Positions 1,165 through 52,588 of a stretch of 64,000 bases of DNA are shown here, one piece after another. The notes below the pieces were generated by a model, which was not told the DNA's origin, made no database searches, and worked only from the letters and a program-made list of their open reading frames with translations. The stretch is from Prostheceraeus crozeri (taxonomy: Eukaryota > Platyhelminthes > Polycladida > Euryleptidae): the NCBI GenBank assembly GCA_907163375.1, contig CAJQUW010015652.1, forward strand, positions 62,001 through 126,000. Direction: 5' to 3'. Numbering within the stretch: position 1 is the first letter of the stretch; the number at the start of each line of letters is the position of its first letter. A program made the translations under genes and the position numbers.

Positions 1165-1239
1165 TTTCCTCCAGTCTTCAGGTACGACGAATAGATTCCG
1201 TCTAATTTAGGCACCGATTTACTTGCAGGTCAATGCTGC

Positions 1240-1315
1240 TAGATCATAAAAAAGAATCAAATTGCTGAAACATGTTGTAGTAGTAGATCCTTGCGTAAGG
1301 CGATTTATTGAAAAT
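1240..1315 (+). repeat. short dispersed repeat R1, copy 1
   Basis: A block reading AAGAATCAAATTGCTGAAAC, then a spacer, then GGCGATTTATTG. Related blocks occur at 9375-9420 (+), 29885-29945 (-) and 38525-38615 (-). In the 38525 copy the same two motifs appear in the same order on the opposite strand. The family is unknown to me and no ends or duplications are clear. Confidence 0.45.
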
Positions 1316-1319
1316 TATT

Positions 1320-2184
1320 TTGTCAAAATGCCTTTCATGAGGGGCCTGAGCTCATATTCATTTGTGTAGGAAGGAGGCCAAAATCCAGTTGATGTCTACG
1401 AAATCCATCTTTCTGATCAGCTAATTCCGTGGTAATTTCTTTAAACTGCAAAATTCTGCTCTTGTCACATTTGGTGCTGGGTTTCAACTCGAGTTCATTC
1501 AATAAAATCGAAACTGCATACACATAGGATTTAATTAATGCTAAACTTAATACTTGCTCAATAGTGGCGGAATTCCATGGCCGCACCTACCACTTTCAGT
1601 TGTACCAGTATCTTGAACTGTTGATTTAATTCATCGCAAGGATTTCGATCGCTGTAGGCTAGAGACAGTACATGCAATCATTTTTATAGTCCTAAGCGCT
1701 CGTGAAAGAGGCAATTGAGACACTTGAGCGTTCTATATGCCACCGATGAGAGGAGTTGATAATCCTTTAGGAGTAGTCTGATGCTTGAAATGGAAACTTG
1801 AATGTTCAGGGTTGATTTGAAGATCTTCAAATAATAGAAAAACATGGAATGCTCTTTCTTCGGACGACTTAACAAGCAGCTATTGCAATGGGAGAGAATG
1901 TAACAGCTGAGAAGTTTCACATGAGAATTCAATAATGTTCCTTTTGAAAAAGCCATTTTTATAACGACAACATATCGTAAGTGATCAAGCAGCAGAGTAG
2001 ATTGCAACACCGGGAAACATTCTTCTTTGTGTTGACAGTTGTACATTTTACCCATTCGATTGATAGGCTTTTATCCTTCCCTCCAGGACCGTGTGAATAC
2101 CAGGCTCTAAAATACCACTTGAAATGCCAGGATGAAACCTAGAACTGCATTAGAAGATAGGAAGAACGACCGAAATTCTCAGGC
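1320..2184. other. nothing recognised
   Basis: Open frames of 83 and 123 codons on the - strand (1586-1335 and 2055-1684) have no recognisable family, and the base composition is the same as the surrounding non-coding DNA. Confidence 0.5.
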
Positions 2185-2194
2185 ATGTTCGGCC

Positions 2195-2600
2195 GGCCGG
2201 TTCAAGCCTGCATCTGTTCTATTTCATTTAGGGCTTTAACCTGTTATTTGAGATCGGCTTCGAAGAGAGTCAAGGTTCTAGCTGACTTCAGGCCAACTGC
2301 TGGACGGTTTAGTGTACATAGAGGTGAGACCGGCGTAGAACACAGTTCGCGAAGGGTTATCGCTGCCTTCAAACCGACATCTGGTCGATTTCATGTCGGG
2401 CTCTGACCGGCTATTTGAGATCGGCTTCGAACAGAGTTAGCGAAGGGTTCTCGCTGCCTTTAAACCGACATCTGGTCGACCGACCTAGCTCGCAGTTCTG
2501 GCTGATTTTCGGTTGACTTCAGTGCAAGGTTCAGATTGGATTTAGTTCGATTTCAGGTTGATTTAATGTTGGGATTCAGGCCGATGCTTCAAGCCAGTCA
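2195..2600 (+). repeat. imperfect tandem repeat block, GC-richer than surroundings
   Basis: TTTGAGATCGGCTTCGAA occurs near 2246 and again near 2414, about 168 bases apart. GCGAAGGGTT followed by TCGCTGCCTT and CCGACATCTGGTCGA occurs near 2347 and again near 2438, about 91 bases apart. The block is therefore a nested, partly degenerate tandem repeat. A 73-codon open frame lies across it and is best read as a by-product of the repeat. Confidence 0.6.
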
Positions 2601-3535
2601 TCATGTGAAATGACATTTTAATTCACAAAATTTTAAAAATACTCTGTAATGCCTATCAAACATGGGGTGTGGGACAGTTTTCTTTATCAATATGGCATCA
2701 TTTATACACATCGCTCACAATTTCGAGAAGAACTGCCTTTCAGACGTTTTTTATGGACACGTTGGTAGGCGTTGAAGCATAAAAACATGATGCTGTAGGG
2801 CTATGGCAAAGCTGTTCAATAAAGCAACATTTGGATGCATGTAATAAAGGACCTCCTTGTCAGCTGAGTGTGTGCAGATTCTGACGGAACTGGGAAGTTG
2901 ATCGAGGACATGCCAAGTGACTCGGGAAGGTCTTCTCACTCAGATTCTGTCAAGTTTGATTCTAAAAGTAGCTCTAGAAGAGTCAGAAAGTTCGACACCA
3001 TTATATCTGCCGGTAGTAGCGTGCCTTTAAAGGCAAACACAAGTTAAGTTTAGTATTGGTTAGATGCATGCATGTTAAATTAAGTTATGTCCAATATAAC
3101 ATCAACATGGATTTATGAGGGTAACAATGTCAACCATTTGAGGGCGCGAAAGCGCCTGACATCCATGCGCAATTAAATGGTCTGGGCAGCAATGTATAAC
3201 TGCCAGCTTGTTTGAGAAGACAGCAATGTCTATGTAAAGCCGAGGCTGACAGTCATTGTTGTCCGAATTCAAACATACTCACAGTTGCATTGTAATACGA
3301 TTCTATGGCAATGTCATTGCGGTCAGAATTACATGAAACATAAAGAGTATGCAACACACAAATATCATATTACAATGCTGTGAATAGATATGGAGATATA
3401 GGCTAACTGAGATTTCTTAAATACCTTTCACATACATAGATACAGATATCATCTTTGCGAGATACATTGTTGCCTTCTATTTTTCCACATCTTTTTCCGA
3501 ATAGCAAAATTGCGCACAATATGTAAGACTCGTTA
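2601..3535. other. nothing recognised
   Basis: AT-rich non-coding sequence. No long open frame, element end or RNA gene is visible. Confidence 0.5.
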
Positions 3536-10600: not shown

Positions 10601-11157
10601 GAATATGATATGAATGGAATGTAGTTCAGCAGCAATCATGTTATGATTTTAAAGATGACCCTTTTTGCTGTTTATTTAACATAATCCTGACATCATGAGT
10701 GACAGTCTCTGATAAGGAATGATTTTCTTTGAGACTTCTAAATCCGGGATTACATGTCTATCACGAAGGTCTTGGCGCGAAAACTTGCAGATATAAATAG
10801 ATATAGCAGAAAATTTCCCTGTAAATCTATCATCAGATATCTCGTAATTAAAAAACCACAACTATGTTGACGCGACTGGTTCAGTCTGTCGCGAAGAGAG
10901 GATGTTGGTGCTCGAGTTGATGATGATTTTTGTCTGCTTTCCTGACTTTAAACGGAATCGATTGTTTCTCTTTGGATCTGATATTGGACTTGAAATATTG
11001 AATCAGGAGAACCCTTGAAGTCGCACCGAGAGACGACGCACGTTTGTGATCACTTAAAAAGCAAAACAAAAGTTTTAAAATTTAATTTTTTTGTTGCAGA
11101 CAAAGGATTGAAGCATTTTATTTTTTGGAAGGTATTAAAGGTCCTTCATGTTTAGAC
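7614..11157. other. long stretch without recognised gene
   Basis: Contains an R1 repeat copy at about 9375-9420. An 86-codon open frame at 9642-9902 (+) ends in a run of arginines and has no recognisable domain. I see no convincing exon, RNA gene or element end in the rest. Confidence 0.45.
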
Positions 11158-11212
11158 AAGTAACCTGGCAATTGATAAATTTATCAAATCTCAACAGGTG
11201 TAACCACCACGA

Positions 11213-11241
11213 GACATGTTTCAACCTGTTGGGCATCATCA
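11213..11241 (-). ncRNA. mutated hammerhead ribozyme in the left arm
   Basis: On the - strand the core reads ATGATGA, a short stem-loop with CCCAACAGG, then GAAACATGTC. The invariant C3 before TGATGA is replaced by A, and the left side of stem II is altered, so this copy is predicted to be inactive. It is the inverted partner of the intact core at 11434-11475. Confidence 0.6.
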
Positions 11242-11433
11242 TGTAATGAGTAGCGCCTGCGTGAAGCGGATGCGGTATTAAGTGATTGCAGAATGCAGTC
11301 CGCCCTCCACGTGCCTGCGTTAAAGCAGTACCTTCCTGGCTAATTCACGCTCTCAACAGATGGTCCGGTGGCCTTGTGGTTAGAGGGTATGCTTGCACGT
11401 CCTCTAGCTCCAACGTCGCTGGTTCAAACCTAC

Positions 11434-11475
11434 CCACGACTGATGAGGCCCAACAGGCCGAAACATGTCTCGTGG
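11434..11475 (+). ncRNA. type I hammerhead ribozyme, core intact
   Basis: All conserved core positions can be read. C3 and UGAUGA lie at 11440-11446. Stem II is GGCC/GGCC around the loop CAACA (11447-11459). GAA is at 11460-11462. Stem III is the palindrome ACATGT (11463-11468), three base pairs without a loop. H17 is C at 11469, the predicted cleavage site. Stem I pairs CCACGA (11434-11439) with TCGTGG (11470-11475), six perfect pairs, with further bases outside available for a loop contact. Very short stem III is a known trait of hammerheads in retrotransposons, which may act as dimers. Activity is not shown by sequence alone. Confidence 0.85.
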
Positions 11476-11522
11476 TGGTTACATCTGTTGAGATTTGATA
11501 AAAGTCCATCAGTTCTGACCAG

Positions 11523-12325: not shown

Positions 12326-13256
12326 ATATTTGTGATAGGACTACGACTCCGGGGGTTGATAGGACTCCGACTCTGACTCCGGGTGGCCAGTATACATAGC
12401 CTAGTTTTTTAAAAAAACTGGTAACCTACATCATAGATCATTATAGGCTCACCTGAACCTATCTTTAGTGATCATTATCAATCATTTTTGATGAAAGTTT
12501 ATCAAATGTCGCTTTAAGTTTAATGCATGCGACCGGGCTCCTCCCTGATGTGTGCTTCACACGGTTTTCTCCAGTCTCTACCACGCAGGAAAATCCCCAT
12601 CCTTCTCCAAAACATTTGAGTACATTTTCGATTTTAATATGCGCTTTGGAGGAGCCATCAAACACGATTAGCGTGATGGTAAGAGGTAATGTTCTCAAAA
12701 AAACTGGCATTCCATTTTTGTCTCTGACGTGACTTTTGGTGCATAAGTGTGATCGAGGCTGGGAGGGCTTGTCTTCTCTACTAAATCACCCAGTGAAAAG
12801 ACAATCCTTATTTCATGTTGTAATTTTGGTCATTCGCCATTGACCTATGTTGTTATGGTAGATGTAATGAAAAAATAGACGTCTTAGGTCAATAAATCAT
12901 ATAATACTCCCAAATTTTCGAATGTCTCTTTCTCAAGGGTATGAAATCACACTGACAGTGGGCAAATTATCCTACGATCATTAAAGTGTCATTCGCACAT
13001 GCCAACATGCATCTGCTGTTATCAGACTCTTTTTCACCACAGCAGTTATTTGAATGTATTGGGAGTAACACCTTAAGAATATATAGACAAAATGCACATG
13101 CAACATTCTTGTAATGAGGATATTCTTCTAAATGTCCTACTCAATCAAGGAGCCTTTTAACCCTATTTTAAAGAATATTAGAAATAATGGAAATGCTAAT
13201 CATTTGTATTGCACATTCGTCATCTGGCAAATCGTAACGAGAACAAAACGGATAAA
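12326..13256. other. nothing recognised
   Basis: Contains a short degenerate repeat of GGACTCCGACTC type at about 12335-12390. Otherwise plain non-coding DNA. Confidence 0.5.
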
Positions 13257-13549
13257 AATTTATTAATTCTCAACAGATACAACCATCACGAGACGTGTTT
13301 AGGTTAGTCCTCTTAAGTCGTGGGTCAGGCTCGAACCAGCGACTTTGGAGCTAGAGGACGCACAAGTACACCCTCTAACCACAAGGCCACCGGACCATCT
13401 GCTGAGATAGCGAATTAGCCAGGAAGGCACTACTGACACGTGGAGGGCGGATTGCATAATGCAACCACTTCATGCACTTCACGCCACTCATTTAATGTTT
13501 TCACAAACACTACCACAAGTATTTATCAATTGACAGGCTACTTGTGAAA
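13257..13549 (-). mobile_element. hammerhead SINE, decayed copy 2
   Basis: Read on the - strand this copy has the same order as 11158-11522. A terminal motif CAATTGATAAATA comes first, then a shared CCGCCCTCCACGTG block. Next are A box TGGTTAGAGG (13372-13381) and B box GGTTCGAGCC (13328-13337), then a decayed hammerhead reading CCCACGACTTAAGA, then AAACACGTCTCGTG. The core G5 is T, the GAA box is altered, and stem II is disrupted, so it should be inactive. The left-arm hammerhead is largely deleted. The promoter region is better conserved than the ribozyme. Confidence 0.75.
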
Positions 13550-14055: not shown

Positions 14056-14173
14056 AAGGGTGTTGGTGTCATTTATTGACTTAATAGTTGTCATTTTCTT
14101 TTGATATGCAATGTACTGCGGCAGACCTTTGTTGTCAATAACTTGCCTAATCGCTACATTGTCGATATTTCAG

Positions 14174-15016
14174 GTGAACGTTAGGATTCGGGACATCAAT
14201 GACAACGCTCCTCACTTCCTGCAGCCGATCTACTCGGAGTCAGTGACTGAAGACACAGATCCAGCGCGTTATCCTCATTATCCTATCGTGAGGGTTCAGG
14301 CACGTGATCAAGATGAGCCTGATACTCCAAACACAGAAATAGTTTACAGTCTAGGCGAAATTCCGATCAATAAGGACAACAAGGAACTCTTCAAGATCGA
14401 CTCTACAACAGGACAGATCACTTCGACGAGTCTATTAGATCGCGAGGAGCAGAAATTCTTCAATTTCTCTGTGTTGGCCACCGACAAAGGCAAGCCTCAT
14501 CTCACCGGCACAGCGACAGTGTCCTTAACAGTAACAGACTACAATGATCACACGCCGAAATTCGGTCAAATCAAGTACAACTGTTATCTTCGTGAGAACG
14601 TTCCTATCAATTCTCTTGTGGAAACTATCCACGTGCGCGACAAGGATGAAGGTCGAAATGCAAATCTCTCATTCTACATGCGTTACGAGGAAGGTCCACA
14701 GAGTCTTCCATTTCGGCTGAGCTCTGGCGGGCCTTTTCAGAATGGTTACTCGGTCTACGTTCGCACAATCGCTCGGATCGACCGTGAGGCGCTGGTGTCC
14801 TCAGATCGGAATCACAGAACCAACGTCAGTCCTGTCTACAGATTCTACATCATCGCCAAAGATATGGGCATCGATAGAAGCTTGACGTCTAGAGTGGAAG
14901 TCAGTGTGCATATCACCGATGAGAACGATGAAGCGCCGCGCTTCAACAATCCACCTAACAACCGGTCTCGCGTGCGGGTTTCATATCTGGAACGTGTGGG
15001 CAAAGAAATCGTACAA
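14174..15016 (+). CDS. cadherin superfamily, internal exon with two EC repeats
   Basis: The exon encodes 281 residues and is phase 0 at both ends. The acceptor is ATATTTCAG before 14174 and the donor is CAA/GTAAGT at 15016/15017. Residues 1-15 end a preceding repeat with the calcium linker DINDNAPHF. One full EC repeat follows (residues 16-130), with E26, RDQDE at 44-48, DRE at 89-91, ATDKG at 102-106 and linker DYNDHTPKF (122-130). A second (131-257) has RENV at 140-143, RDKDEGRNA at 155-163, DRE at 203-205, AKDMG at 228-232 and linker DENDEAPRF. A third begins before the donor. Cadherin repeats bind calcium between domains and mediate cell adhesion outside the cell. The exon is GC-richer than its surroundings and has no stop. 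The tandem repeats suggest a large member (Dachsous, Fat, protocadherin or CDH23-like), but I cannot assign the family. No neighbouring exon is visible, so both introns are long. Confidence 0.93.
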
Positions 15017-15261
15017 GTAAGTCAAATTTGACTTTTGTTCATGTGAGATGCGAATTGCAAATAATTGACATCAGTTTCTTGTGACGTCATCATCGTAAAC
15101 ACATCAGAAAGCTATAGATCGGACATCTTCAAGATCAGCTGCAGAAATCGGGTCTGAGTCTGAGTGAAGCTCTAACATGATCCGGAAGAAAGGAATCTAG
15201 CTGCAACCGAGATCAAGCTAAAAACTGCAAGTGTTATAATGATAATCGGTTGGGTTCATGG

Positions 15262-30216: not shown

Positions 30217-31212
30217 CTAATATTTTGTGGCCCTACCCTCATTGTCAATGACATTACCAATTCGTCTAGGCATTGATTCGATGATATCGTTGATTTTTGA
30301 CTGATCTAAAATTCTCCACTCTCTTTTTAACAGTGACGTAAGTTGTGATACGCCATCTGTACGTAGCAGTGAACGACGAACGTTACGTTTTAGAATACTC
30401 CATACATTTTCTATGGGATTTAGATGAGGAGAACGAGCTGGCCAAGATAATGTCCTAAGCCCTAATTGAGACTTGCATAAGTGGACTCTACTACTCCTGT
30501 GACACGTAGCATTATCATCCATAAATAACCAAGTCGATGGATCACCAAGTTGATCTGTCATTTGGCCAATGTTCATTCGTAAAACATTCACATAGCGTTC
30601 AGAATTCATGGTTCCTTGCTGCATGTGAAGTTCAGAGCGGCCATTGGTCCAAATGCCAGCCCAAATCAGTAGAGCCGCACCACCTTGTACCCGGGGACGA
30701 TGTAAATGTCTCGGAATTTCCTGATCAGATTTTATCCATAATCTCAATCGACCATCACTATCCTTCAGACGGACTGATGCCTCATCAGACCAGACAACCC
30801 GATCCCATTGATTTCGCCAGTGACAATGACTCATTGCCCATCTGAGACGTCTTTTTGTATGCTGATCTGATAATTCGATCTGAGAGGGCCTCTTACAGCT
30901 CTTGAAATTCGACTCAATAAGTCTTCTACGAATAGTGGACTTAGAAATAGACGAGTCTACTGCAGCCATCTCAGTGAACGAGAGACTTGGATCAACTTTA
31001 ACAAATCTCAAAATTAGGCGGTCTCTACGTTTGGATGTTTTGCGTGGACGGCCAGAGGCCTCTTTACGACAGAGTCGAAAATCATCATTATGCCATCGAT
31101 GCACATTTGTGTAAGGGACATTTAGTCGCTTGCTTGTAGCTCGCAAAGAAAACCCTAGTTATAGCAAGGCTGACACTTTGCCTTTTGTGAATGCGATCTC
31201 GTTATTGTTCAT
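30217..31212 (-). pseudogene. Tc1-like transposase with one nonsense codon
   Basis: Read down from an ATG at 31212 the frame is 331 codons plus stop, close to the usual ~340 for Tc1. It has one in-frame TAA at codon 18 (31161-31159). Past that it is open for over 300 codons. Residues are numbered from codon 23 (31146), the start of the long recognisable part. An N-terminal helix-turn-helix region is seen (TSKRLNVPYTNVHRWHN, then a basic GRPRKTSKRR linker). The DDE catalytic triad lies in VVWSDEASV (D121), WLFMDDNATCH (D211) and SPHLNPIENVW (E246). The spacing of 34 residues between the last two is the DD34E signature of the Tc1 group. The enzyme would cut and paste the element at TA sites in the nucleus. 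The single stop suggests recent inactivation. A downstream start would lose the first helix needed for end binding. Confidence 0.93.
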
Positions 31213-32350: not shown

Positions 32351-32605
32351 CATAGAAATCGACAACAATAAAACCTCTAGAACGGAGGTTAAGCTTCATG
32401 TAATACACAATAGTGGCACATAAATCGCACGCATTTTCACTTAGATACACCTGTCAACGGCTGTATCATTGGGTTAGAATCAGTCACATGTGTAATTCTA
32501 GGCTTTTCATTGGTCATTCATGCCCCAACTTAGTTCCCCGGCGGTGCCGCGACCTTGAGTCAATTTCCATTCTAATTAACTTCAGTTAAACAATCTATTT
32601 CTATG
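32351..32605. mobile_element. CATAGAAAT-family MITE, left member of an inverted pair
   Basis: Same orientation and ends as 28265-28518 and 255 bases long. Preceded by CTACCAAG (32343-32350) and followed by CTACCAAG (32606-32613), an exact 8-bp target duplication. Confidence 0.9.
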
Positions 32606-32613
32606 CTACCAAG

Positions 32614-32869
32614 CATAGAAATAAACTGTTTATCTGAAGTTCGCTAGAATGGAAATTGACTCAAGGTCGCGGCACATCCGGGGGAACTAGTTTGGGGCAT
32701 GAAGAACCAATGAAGAGCTTCAATTTACCCATGTGACTGATTCTAACCGAATGATACAGACGTTGGCAGGTGCATCTGATTGAAAATGCGTGCGATTTAT
32801 GTGCCGTTATTGTGCATTGCATGAAGCTTAATTTCCATTCTAGAGGTTTTATTGTTGTCAATTTCTATG
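32614..32869. mobile_element. CATAGAAAT-family MITE, right member of the inverted pair
   Basis: Opposite orientation to its neighbour and 256 bases long. It starts CATAGAAATAAACTG and ends AATTTCTATG. Flanked by the same CTACCAAG on both sides (32606-32613 and 32870-32877). Together the pair can form a hairpin of about 250 base pairs with an 8-base loop. Confidence 0.9.
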
Positions 32870-42213: not shown

Positions 42214-42535
42214 AATTCCAGCAGCGAGCACGAGTTTCTGCAGGGAACGAGGCCGACAATGACACTTTCACAAAATGATGTACACCTCATAGTCCGGCAG
42301 CCAGCACGAGTTTGTGGAGGGAACGAGGCCGACAATGAGACTTTCACAGAATGATGCGCACCTCATAGTCCGGCAGCCAGCACGAGTTTTTGGAGGGAAC
42401 GAGGCCGACAATGACACTTTCACAAAATGATGCGCACCTCATAGTCCGGCAGCCAGCACGAGTTTGTGGAGGGAACGATGCCGACAATGACACTTTCACA
42501 AAATGATGTGCACCTCATAGTCCGGCAGCCAGCAC
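42214..42535 (+). repeat. 76-bp tandem array
   Basis: Unit starts AGTCCGGCAGCCAGCACGAG at 42291, 42367, 42443 and 42519, an exact 76-base period. A diverged first unit starts near 42215. Units differ by few changes, so the amplification is recent. Confidence 0.93.
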
Positions 42536-43176
42536 CTCATGCCTACTATGAAACTTCACGTCTGCCGAATTCTACCTGGTTTCTCCTCTTGGCAGACAGG
42601 ATCAAAGACAGACACATATTAATCAAATGGGACGAAGATCGCAGTTTTTGGCAAAAGTGAAACTTTCTATGTCTTCTCTTATTAACTGAAAAGTACTTAG
42701 TCCAGAGCCATAATTTTTACATGGAATGTCTTCAGGTCATTTCCTATGATGTGCTTCTGATCGGCGATGTATGTAAGAGTGTGCTTCAATGCGAATACAG
42801 TGGGTCAGCATGTTGGTGTTTGCAAAAATTAGGAAGGAGCGTTGTACAGGACTTCGTTCAATGGGTTGGAGGCGAGGGCATTTTTTGTTTTTCTCTGATC
42901 CTGTCTGACACGATAGAATTCGTTAGACCCGCAGAGTCGCAGTAGGCATGGGGTGTACATCATTCCGTGAAAGTTTCATTCTCGGCCTCGTTCCCTGCAC
43001 AAACTCGTTCTGGCTGCCACACTATGAGGTGTACATCATTTTTATGAAAGTCTCATTCTCGGCCTCGTTCCCTGTAGAGACTCGTTCTGGCTGCCGGACT
43101 ATGAGGTGTACATCATTTTGTGAAAGTCTCATTCTCGGCCTCGTTCCCTGCAGAAACTCGTGCTGGCTGCAGGAAT
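42214..43176. mobile_element. foldback element, copy 2, with tandem arrays at both ends
   Basis: The left end ATTCCAGCAGC is mirrored at the right end by GCTGCAGGAAT. The left terminus is a 76-bp tandem array (about 4.3 units), and the right terminus has three inverted units of the same sequence. Between them lie the same inner blocks as 6905-7611, including GGAATGTCTTCAGGTCATTT at about 42723. The terminal unit of copy 1 has therefore been amplified here at both ends. All open frames in the region follow the repeat. Confidence 0.85.
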
Positions 43177-51902: not shown

Positions 51903-52140
51903 TTCTCAGGTATCCTGACAATTGATAGATTTATCAGATCTCTGCAGATGAAACCCCGAGACATGTTTCAGCTTGTTTTGTCTCACCAATCGTTGGCAGG
52001 TTCGAGACAGCGACTTCGGACACTGGAGGACGCGCCAGCAAACCCTTTAACCGTACTGCTACCGAATCATCGCCTGTGAGCGCGAGTAAGCCAGCAAAGC
52101 ACTGATTCATCGCAGGCATCTGAAGAGCGAAATGCATCCT
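51903..52140 (-). mobile_element. hammerhead SINE, decayed copy 3
   Basis: On the - strand the order is the same as in the other two copies. First is a GCTGGCTTACTCGCGCTC block, then a degraded A box ACGGTTAAAGGG (52054-52043) and B box GTCTCGAACC (52008-51999). A hammerhead remnant follows, with TTGGTGA in place of CTGATGA and an intact GAAACATGTC (51969-51960). The outer motif GACAATTGATAGATTTATCA is conserved with copy 1. It is the oldest-looking of the three copies. Confidence 0.7.
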
Positions 52141-52194
52141 GCATTCGGTGTTGAGGCAGACAACTAGCCTCAGGCAACTTCAGCTACAAGGGGA

Positions 52195-52588
52195 GATCTG
52201 GTGACTCCAGGGGAAGGTCTCGTGACTCCAGAGGAAGGTCTGGTGACTCCATGGGAAGATCTGGTGACTCCAGGGAAAGGTCTTGTGACTTCAGTGGAGA
52301 TCTGGTGACTCCAGAGGAAGATCTGGTGACTCCAGGGGAAGGCCTCGTGACTTCAGTGGAGATCTGGTGACTCCAGGGGAAGAACTCGTGACTCCAGGGG
52401 AAGATCTGGTGACTCCAGAGGAAGATCTGGTGACTCCATGGAAAGGTCTCGTGACTCCAGTGGAGATCTGGTGACTCCAGAGGAAGATCTGGTGACTCCA
52501 GGGGAGATCTGGTGACTCAAGGGGAAGATCACGACACTCCAGGGGAAGTTCAGGAGACTTTAGGGGAAGTTCAGGTGACTTCAGGAAA
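52195..52588 (+). repeat. 20-21 bp minisatellite
   Basis: About 19 head-to-tail units of GATCTGGTGACTCCAGGGGAA with single-base variation and occasional 20-base units. The 21-base period keeps the frame open on the - strand (about 116 codons of LPLESPD repeats), which is a by-product unless transcription is shown. Confidence 0.95.

Follow-up and report, generated by a model that had tools for sequence, protein, structure and literature searches.

A head-to-head, hammerhead-bearing retrozyme/SINE-like element in the polyclad Prostheceraeus crozeri and its likeness to Penelope-like elements

The stretch of Prostheceraeus crozeri DNA analyzed here (64,000 nucleotides; "the window") carries at 11151–11502 (+ strand) an insertion of a retrozyme-like element that is multi-copy and non-coding. 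Alignment to a 303-bp unit of the family (the copy is L001 1494–1845) resolves it into a minus stretch, unit positions 213–303, followed by a plus stretch, unit positions 1–274, arranged head-to-head with one tailed and one untailed 3′ end; this alignment corrects the extent of 11158–11522 given in an earlier note on the same DNA. The short inverted arm (11151–11241, − strand) starts at the tailed end, called B here (unit position 303), and is 5′-truncated at unit position 213. It contains most of the ribozyme core, a changed stem II and the cut site, but the 5′ strand of ribozyme stem I is missing from it. The long arm (11242–11502, + strand) runs from unit position 1 to 274 and stops at the untailed end, called A. 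The insertion is flanked by imperfect direct repeats, GGTCCTTCATG at 11140–11150 and AGTCCATCAGT at 11503–11513, which are its left and right target-site duplications (the score at this locus alone is only 5). The 62 nt of the element that follow the ribozyme are TTTATCAATTGCCAGGTTACTTGTCTAAA.

Sequence comparison within the window finds two further, diverged copies, both on the minus strand and both with a decayed ribozyme core: one at 13256–13545 (81% identical over 227 bases) and one, apparently 5′-truncated, at 51907–52146 (74% over 232 bases). A 21-bp tandem repeat array at 52189–52585 lies near the 5′ side of the latter. Elsewhere in the window, a 306-amino acid cadherin-repeat open frame (14111–15031, + strand) is likely to be an exon from a large cadherin gene, and a 309-amino acid open frame (30217–31146, − strand) has the Tc1/mariner-type transposase domains DDE_3 and HTH_Tnp_Tc3_2. 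Sub-cut-off microRNA family matches on both strands at 32548–32671 probably mark a palindromic MITE-like hairpin, not a microRNA. Two arrays of 76–77-bp tandem repeats (42217–42535 and 42948–43170) lie about 400 bases apart; by eye their units are reverse complements, possibly a head-to-head tandem insertion. Among the other loci, L029 holds at 1222–3006 (− strand) a COX1 open frame of 594 amino acids, with an apparent N-terminal extension of ∼50 residues relative to its relatives of about 510 amino acids. Among 8000 scored candidates, compared by way of a table 5 translation, the nearest named COX1 proteins are two at 69%, from polyclad genera; its codon use agrees with table 9, the code of flatworms and also of echinoderms, on few AAA codons.

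The long arm contains a type I hammerhead ribozyme with a minimal stem III (11424–11489, + strand). The core CTGATGA is at 11440–11446, and stem II (GGCC/GGCC), the GAAAC segment and the six pairs of stem I (CCACGA/TCGTGG) can be read directly in the window; stem III consists of two pairs, A-U and C-G, closing a 2-nt loop. The hammerhead model predicts cleavage between 11469 and 11470, the preceding base being the end of GAAACATGTC. The Rfam covariance model Hammerhead_HH9 (RF02275) scores 33.5 bits here, with E 1e-6 when 501 bases are scanned and 1.3e-4 for the full 64 kb; this falls short of its gathering score of 52, so a default Rfam scan reports no hammerhead. A strict hammerhead descriptor matches the window once, and 200 mononucleotide shuffles of it not at all. 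The core, stems I and II and the predicted cut site after 11469 that the earlier note described are thus borne out by the sequence, the covariance model and the descriptor. It is the stems that are the evidence; the bare CTGANGA..GAAA pattern is present in 19 of 2000 shuffled units, and being this common in shuffles the core by itself is none. A second complete hammerhead in the left arm was considered and rejected, because 11151–11241 begins inside the core, without the 5′ strand of stem I. At the arm joint of another copy (L005, position 1770, + strand), ACTGATGA directly precedes the ribozyme core and replaces the usual 5′ strand of stem I.

Conservation of the core across genome copies, to which the earlier note had looked for support, is also seen: among the best-preserved loci (L001–L028) 77 of 81 spanning copies keep it intact, a count that inherits the bias of that sample to well-preserved copies. 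The ribozyme stretch varies by 1.1%, only a little less than the 1.6–1.8% found in the rest of the unit. By folding energy the ribozyme stretch is unexceptional (z −1.1 and −1.7, with 23 and 10 of 200 shuffles equally good), and its minimum-energy fold adds three extra pairs across the core. In the RNA fold an AACC/GGTT pairing prolongs stem I across an internal loop, and this AACC is the last four bases of the B box discussed below. RNA of the whole element is predicted to form an arm-to-arm duplex that buries the ribozyme (−168 kcal/mol); a predicted transcript from near the A box would keep stems I and II. Co-folding of two ribozymes gave a plain duplex, which is uninformative on dimer activity.

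Upstream of the core lie a Pol III A box, TGGCCTTGTGG (11369–11379, + strand; one mismatch to TRGYNNANNNG), and a B box, GGTTCAAACC (11421–11430, + strand; no mismatches), both found by pattern match. When the 303-bp unit was mononucleotide-shuffled 3000 times, a pair of equal quality arose six times. ARAGORN finds no tRNA in the window, nor does Rfam in the unit at E values up to 10, so it is the two boxes that carry the label "tRNA". The tRNA-promoter SINE of the earlier note therefore keeps its one-mismatch A box and exact B box and loses any recognizable tRNA homology. T-runs in the 303-nt unit do not exceed 3, and a Pol III transcript would thus continue through tandem units.

The family was collected from the host assembly (2.05 Gb, 14165 contigs) with a 365-base query, for which the best 40 of 1222 first-look candidates were scored, and with an inner-region query that excludes the element ends, for which the best 40 of 469 candidates were scored and 27 of its 34 contigs analyzed. 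These sets are samples that favor well-preserved copies. Copies among the scored places are mostly 93–100% identical, and many of these places are tandem arrays of the 303-bp unit, with units mostly 98–100% identical to the chosen one. On contig C1095, 15 minus units followed by about 14 plus units (∼29 in all) together form a single insertion of ∼9 kb, bounded by a B end and an A end. The candidate retrozyme/SINE family of the earlier note is therefore real in the sense that it is multi-copy and tandemly arrayed, with copies that are closely alike and a core that is mostly intact. The unit is non-coding and too small for a reverse transcriptase (RT) plus endonuclease, unlike an autonomous Penelope-like element (PLE); like metazoan retrozymes it combines a small unit (about 170–400 nt in those elements) and a type I hammerhead with tandem genomic copies. 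When the 303-nt unit of locus L009 is cut at the ribozyme site, its RNA folds at −108 kcal/mol, an energy reached by none of 100 shuffles (z −3.57), into a predicted long rod that continues stem I and would be compatible with self-cleavage and circular RNA. In this fold TCTCAACAGATG (window 11351–11362, + strand, placed by sequence identity) is predicted to pair with 11481–11493 and so to extend stem I of the unit-length RNA.

Most insertions of the element are head-to-head: a minus stretch is followed by a plus stretch, with the 3′ ends facing out and the 5′ ends meeting at a point that varies. When 179 ribozyme-bearing copies were walked in the 3′ direction (some counted twice because loci overlap), 60 ended at unit positions 269–277 and 30 at 298–306; another 65 reached the walk limit in the next tandem unit, and 24 ended elsewhere. 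The two preferred positions are end A, untailed and ∼33 nt past the ribozyme cut site, and end B, tailed and ∼62 nt past it. There are 55 match clusters away from locus edges (three at the edges were excluded), 37 of them two-ended and 18 one-ended and 5′-truncated; clusters were split by a 150-base gap rule, under which an insertion interrupted by a later insertion, as at L024 and perhaps L010, counts twice. Thirty-three of the two-ended clusters can be classified at both ends, and 31 of these are A/B, with one A/A (L017) and one B/B (L013); in the other four one end is unclassifiable. The first query itself held the head-to-head structure and could favor such copies. Among places found with the inner-region query, 11 of 12 classifiable two-ended insertions are A/B.

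Many insertion targets are AT microsatellites, and target duplications are roughly 8–13 bp and variable in length. At 17 hand-picked insertions (some ends set by hand, most AT-microsatellite ones omitted), 13 loci score ≥7, compared with 5.5% of mismatched pairs, and none of 20000 permutations did as well. A chance origin of these features is rejected on the shuffle and permutation controls applied to the hammerhead descriptor, the A and B boxes and the target duplications. One might suspect that this repetitive genome, built from long reads, was misassembled to give the inverted and tandem arrangement, and repeat-related assembly difficulty is indeed mentioned in passages of the genome paper (PMC9469890). 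Nevertheless, many insertions have unique flanks with matching duplications on either side, many are only about 350 bp long, and the end positions are consistent, so that an artefact is barely credible.

The variability of the arms bears on what kind of element this is. Inverted arms can be as short as tens of bases or as long as about 4.6 kb (C1095), both arms begin at the preferred 3′ positions, and sequence from both sides of the cut site is present in nearly all copies seen. The "inverted terminal hammerheads" of the earlier note are not borne out as a fixed structure: the feature is a truncated second cDNA without terminal inverted repeat (TIR) nature. Seen in isolation, the window copy with its 62-nt, 94% inverted repeat could pass for a MITE-like DNA transposon whose TIRs enclose a captured tRNA promoter and hammerhead. 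That repeat is, however, the short arm of this copy, and the different arm lengths and inner breakpoints, the tandem copies, the variable duplications and the one-ended copies do not agree with fixed TIRs; we reject a MITE as having next to no likelihood.

Conventional LINE-driven SINE movement, with inverted copies produced by twin priming, is another explanation. Tandem and inverted copies and variable duplications do occur with LINEs, and an RT_1 frame of uncertain type is present near one copy (L066). Twin priming, though, places the 3′ end of the element at only one outer end, whereas here both outer ends are element 3′ ends, at two preferred positions; moreover the unit has no A-run above 3 and hence no poly-A tail. 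This explanation is rejected as very unlikely.

A closer parallel is offered by PLEs of the same genome. RT_1 open frames lie near element copies at L018 (E 2.2e-11) and L049 (E 3.6e-7), with weak ones at L016 and L017, and GIY-YIG matches appear in a frame of L017 (E 5e-4, just under the Pfam cut-off) and in the L018 frame (E 0.051). These GIY-YIG matches in frames of the host genome, at 20.8 and 14.3 bits, both fall short of the Pfam cut-off of 22.6. Longer homologs of the L018 frame have about 790–830 amino acids and include the RT; of two scanned relatives, one of 816 amino acids has GIY-YIG at E 4e-4 and one of 591 amino acids has it above the cut-off. Given RT plus GIY-YIG in these relatives, hammerheads, tandem and inverted ends, and RT motifs that we take to be of the Penelope type, the frames probably belong to PLEs. 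One PLE insertion (C1140:1049578–1066043) comprises tandem copies, no fewer than four minus and two plus, with most matches in open frames of 836 amino acids.

The PLE set comprises 147 of 153 matches, drawn from the best 150 of 25161 candidates, with the three weakest and the unlisted matches excluded. Among these 147, neighbors within 8 kb of each other are head-to-head in 29 cases, tail-to-tail in none and tandem in nine, six of the latter at a spacing of 2754 bp. Ten PLE insertions were examined at both ends, which were classed by eye, and in nine of them one end is tailed and the other untailed; the tenth (C314), with a left end without ribozyme motif and an untailed right end, did not fit. 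Untailed PLE ends lie about 30–37 nt past their own hammerhead cut, with C11617 as an exception at 13 nt; tailed ends lie 57 nt past it, or 67 nt in the C13006 subfamily, which has an extra stretch. The motif GAAACATGT(A/C) is common to the PLE hammerheads and that of the element. In the PLE families examined the element's own tail sequence was not found, and their tails are not clearly homologous to it.

The element thus shares with PLE insertions a type I hammerhead with minimal stem III close to the 3′ end, head-to-head copies with 3′ ends outward, a tail on one end and variable short duplications. We conclude with a probability of roughly 0.8 that it is a non-autonomous Pol III-type retrozyme/SINE moved by PLE machinery. 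A different explanation keeps the retrozyme circles and has them copied by several retroelements, the likeness to PLEs arising from a common preference for AT microsatellites and from tandem templates. Tandem arrays and ribozyme-made circles are a retrozyme hallmark according to sections of PMC7229834, in keeping with this idea; however, target preference cannot explain the tailed and untailed ends or the similar spacing from end to ribozyme, and copying by several retroelements is accordingly unlikely.

If PLE machinery is responsible, the cycle might run as follows. The internal tRNA-like promoter would start Pol III slightly upstream of the A box, and the hammerheads would cut the resulting multimer to units before ligation, the part that they play in retrozymes; a host ligase would then close unit-length circles. 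Pol III transcription, cleavage and circularization of the RNA, and likewise the use of a PLE protein, are here inferred from genomic sequence. A PLE enzyme (reverse transcriptase plus GIY-YIG nuclease) would cut both strands of an often AT-rich target, and a cDNA would start on each broken end, at ∼33 nt (A, untailed) or ∼62 nt (B, tailed) past the ribozyme cut. Copying would proceed around the template or along it, over distances that vary, after which the two cDNAs would be joined 5′ end to 5′ end and repair would leave duplications of roughly 8–13 bp. Because nearly all copies span the cut site, the template must have been uncleaved or re-ligated there, and a spanning template would most simply be a circle. 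The ∼15 units per arm in C1095 fit repeated travel round a circle and equally fit long multimers, and recombination could also enlarge tandem arrays once they are inserted.

Retrozymes, ribozyme SINEs of the Sm-alpha type and PLE hammerheads are all known already. Parts of PMC7229834 describe metazoan retrozymes that resemble the element in their non-coding units of 170–400 nt, type I hammerhead, tandem copies and self-pairing; compared with these descriptions, the A and B boxes, the PLE-type scar and the PLE-like minimal stem III distinguish the element. Strong self-pairing of retrozymes is likewise reported in portions of PMC7229834 and PMC4918200. According to passages of PMC7761336, retrozymes seem to be without promoters, and the metazoan ones without a motif that reveals the mobilizing element. 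Plant LTR retrozymes, as far as excerpts of PMC4918200 describe them, are also non-autonomous and hammerhead-bearing, but they have type III hammerheads where the element has type I, and the element has no LTR-type insertion structure.

The schistosome element Sm-alpha has a Pol III promoter. Sm-alpha and Sj-alpha are SINE-like with hammerheads, and tRNA-Gln-derived Sm-alpha-like elements are reported, in excerpts of PMC2770079, PMC8490949 and PMC4918200; thus a tRNA-type head joined to a hammerhead is not the new combination that the earlier note supposed. By these partial descriptions, SINE nature, the hammerhead and a flatworm host are common to both, the tRNA-related head belongs to Sm-alpha, and the element has no recognizable tRNA; head-to-head insertions with tailed and untailed ends, and dependence on PLEs, do not figure in these descriptions of the schistosome elements.

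The likeness to hammerhead PLEs, in passages of PMC3846280 and PMC11167929, extends to a minimal type I hammerhead, tandem and head-to-head copies, an optional tail on one inverted end, short duplications and AT-rich targets. The same parts of PMC3846280 describe a bdelloid PLE with inverted pLTRs, an optional ∼31-bp tail on one pLTR and a 9-bp duplication, give duplications of 8–10 bp, and state that PLE enzymes are able to act in trans. The element differs in its unit of only 303 bp and in a tail with no clear likeness to those of the examined PLE families. PLEs are named as a strong or likely candidate for mobilizing animal retrozymes in portions of PMC7229834 and PMC7761336, where such mobilization is so far only proposed.

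A ribozyme SINE with a PLE scar, or a SINE moved by PLEs, was not found in searches of open-access literature. On balance, we rather favor the reading that this "PLE-SINE" may be the first retrozyme/SINE whose mobilizing machinery reads directly from its scar, one that would combine an internal Pol III promoter and a Penelope-type 3′ module (the hammerhead with cDNA starts at about 33 and 60 nt) with twin cDNAs made from circular RNA on both strands of one break. If so, the scar itself would name the partner class, in many copies and with autonomous elements of the same genome as an internal comparison. Such natural double-ended insertions would let the PLE reaction be read, with its two strand cuts, two start sites and variable travel along the template. 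The role of the hammerhead in PLEs would also become testable, as the distance from ribozyme to start site is similar in PLEs and in an otherwise unrelated-looking short element.
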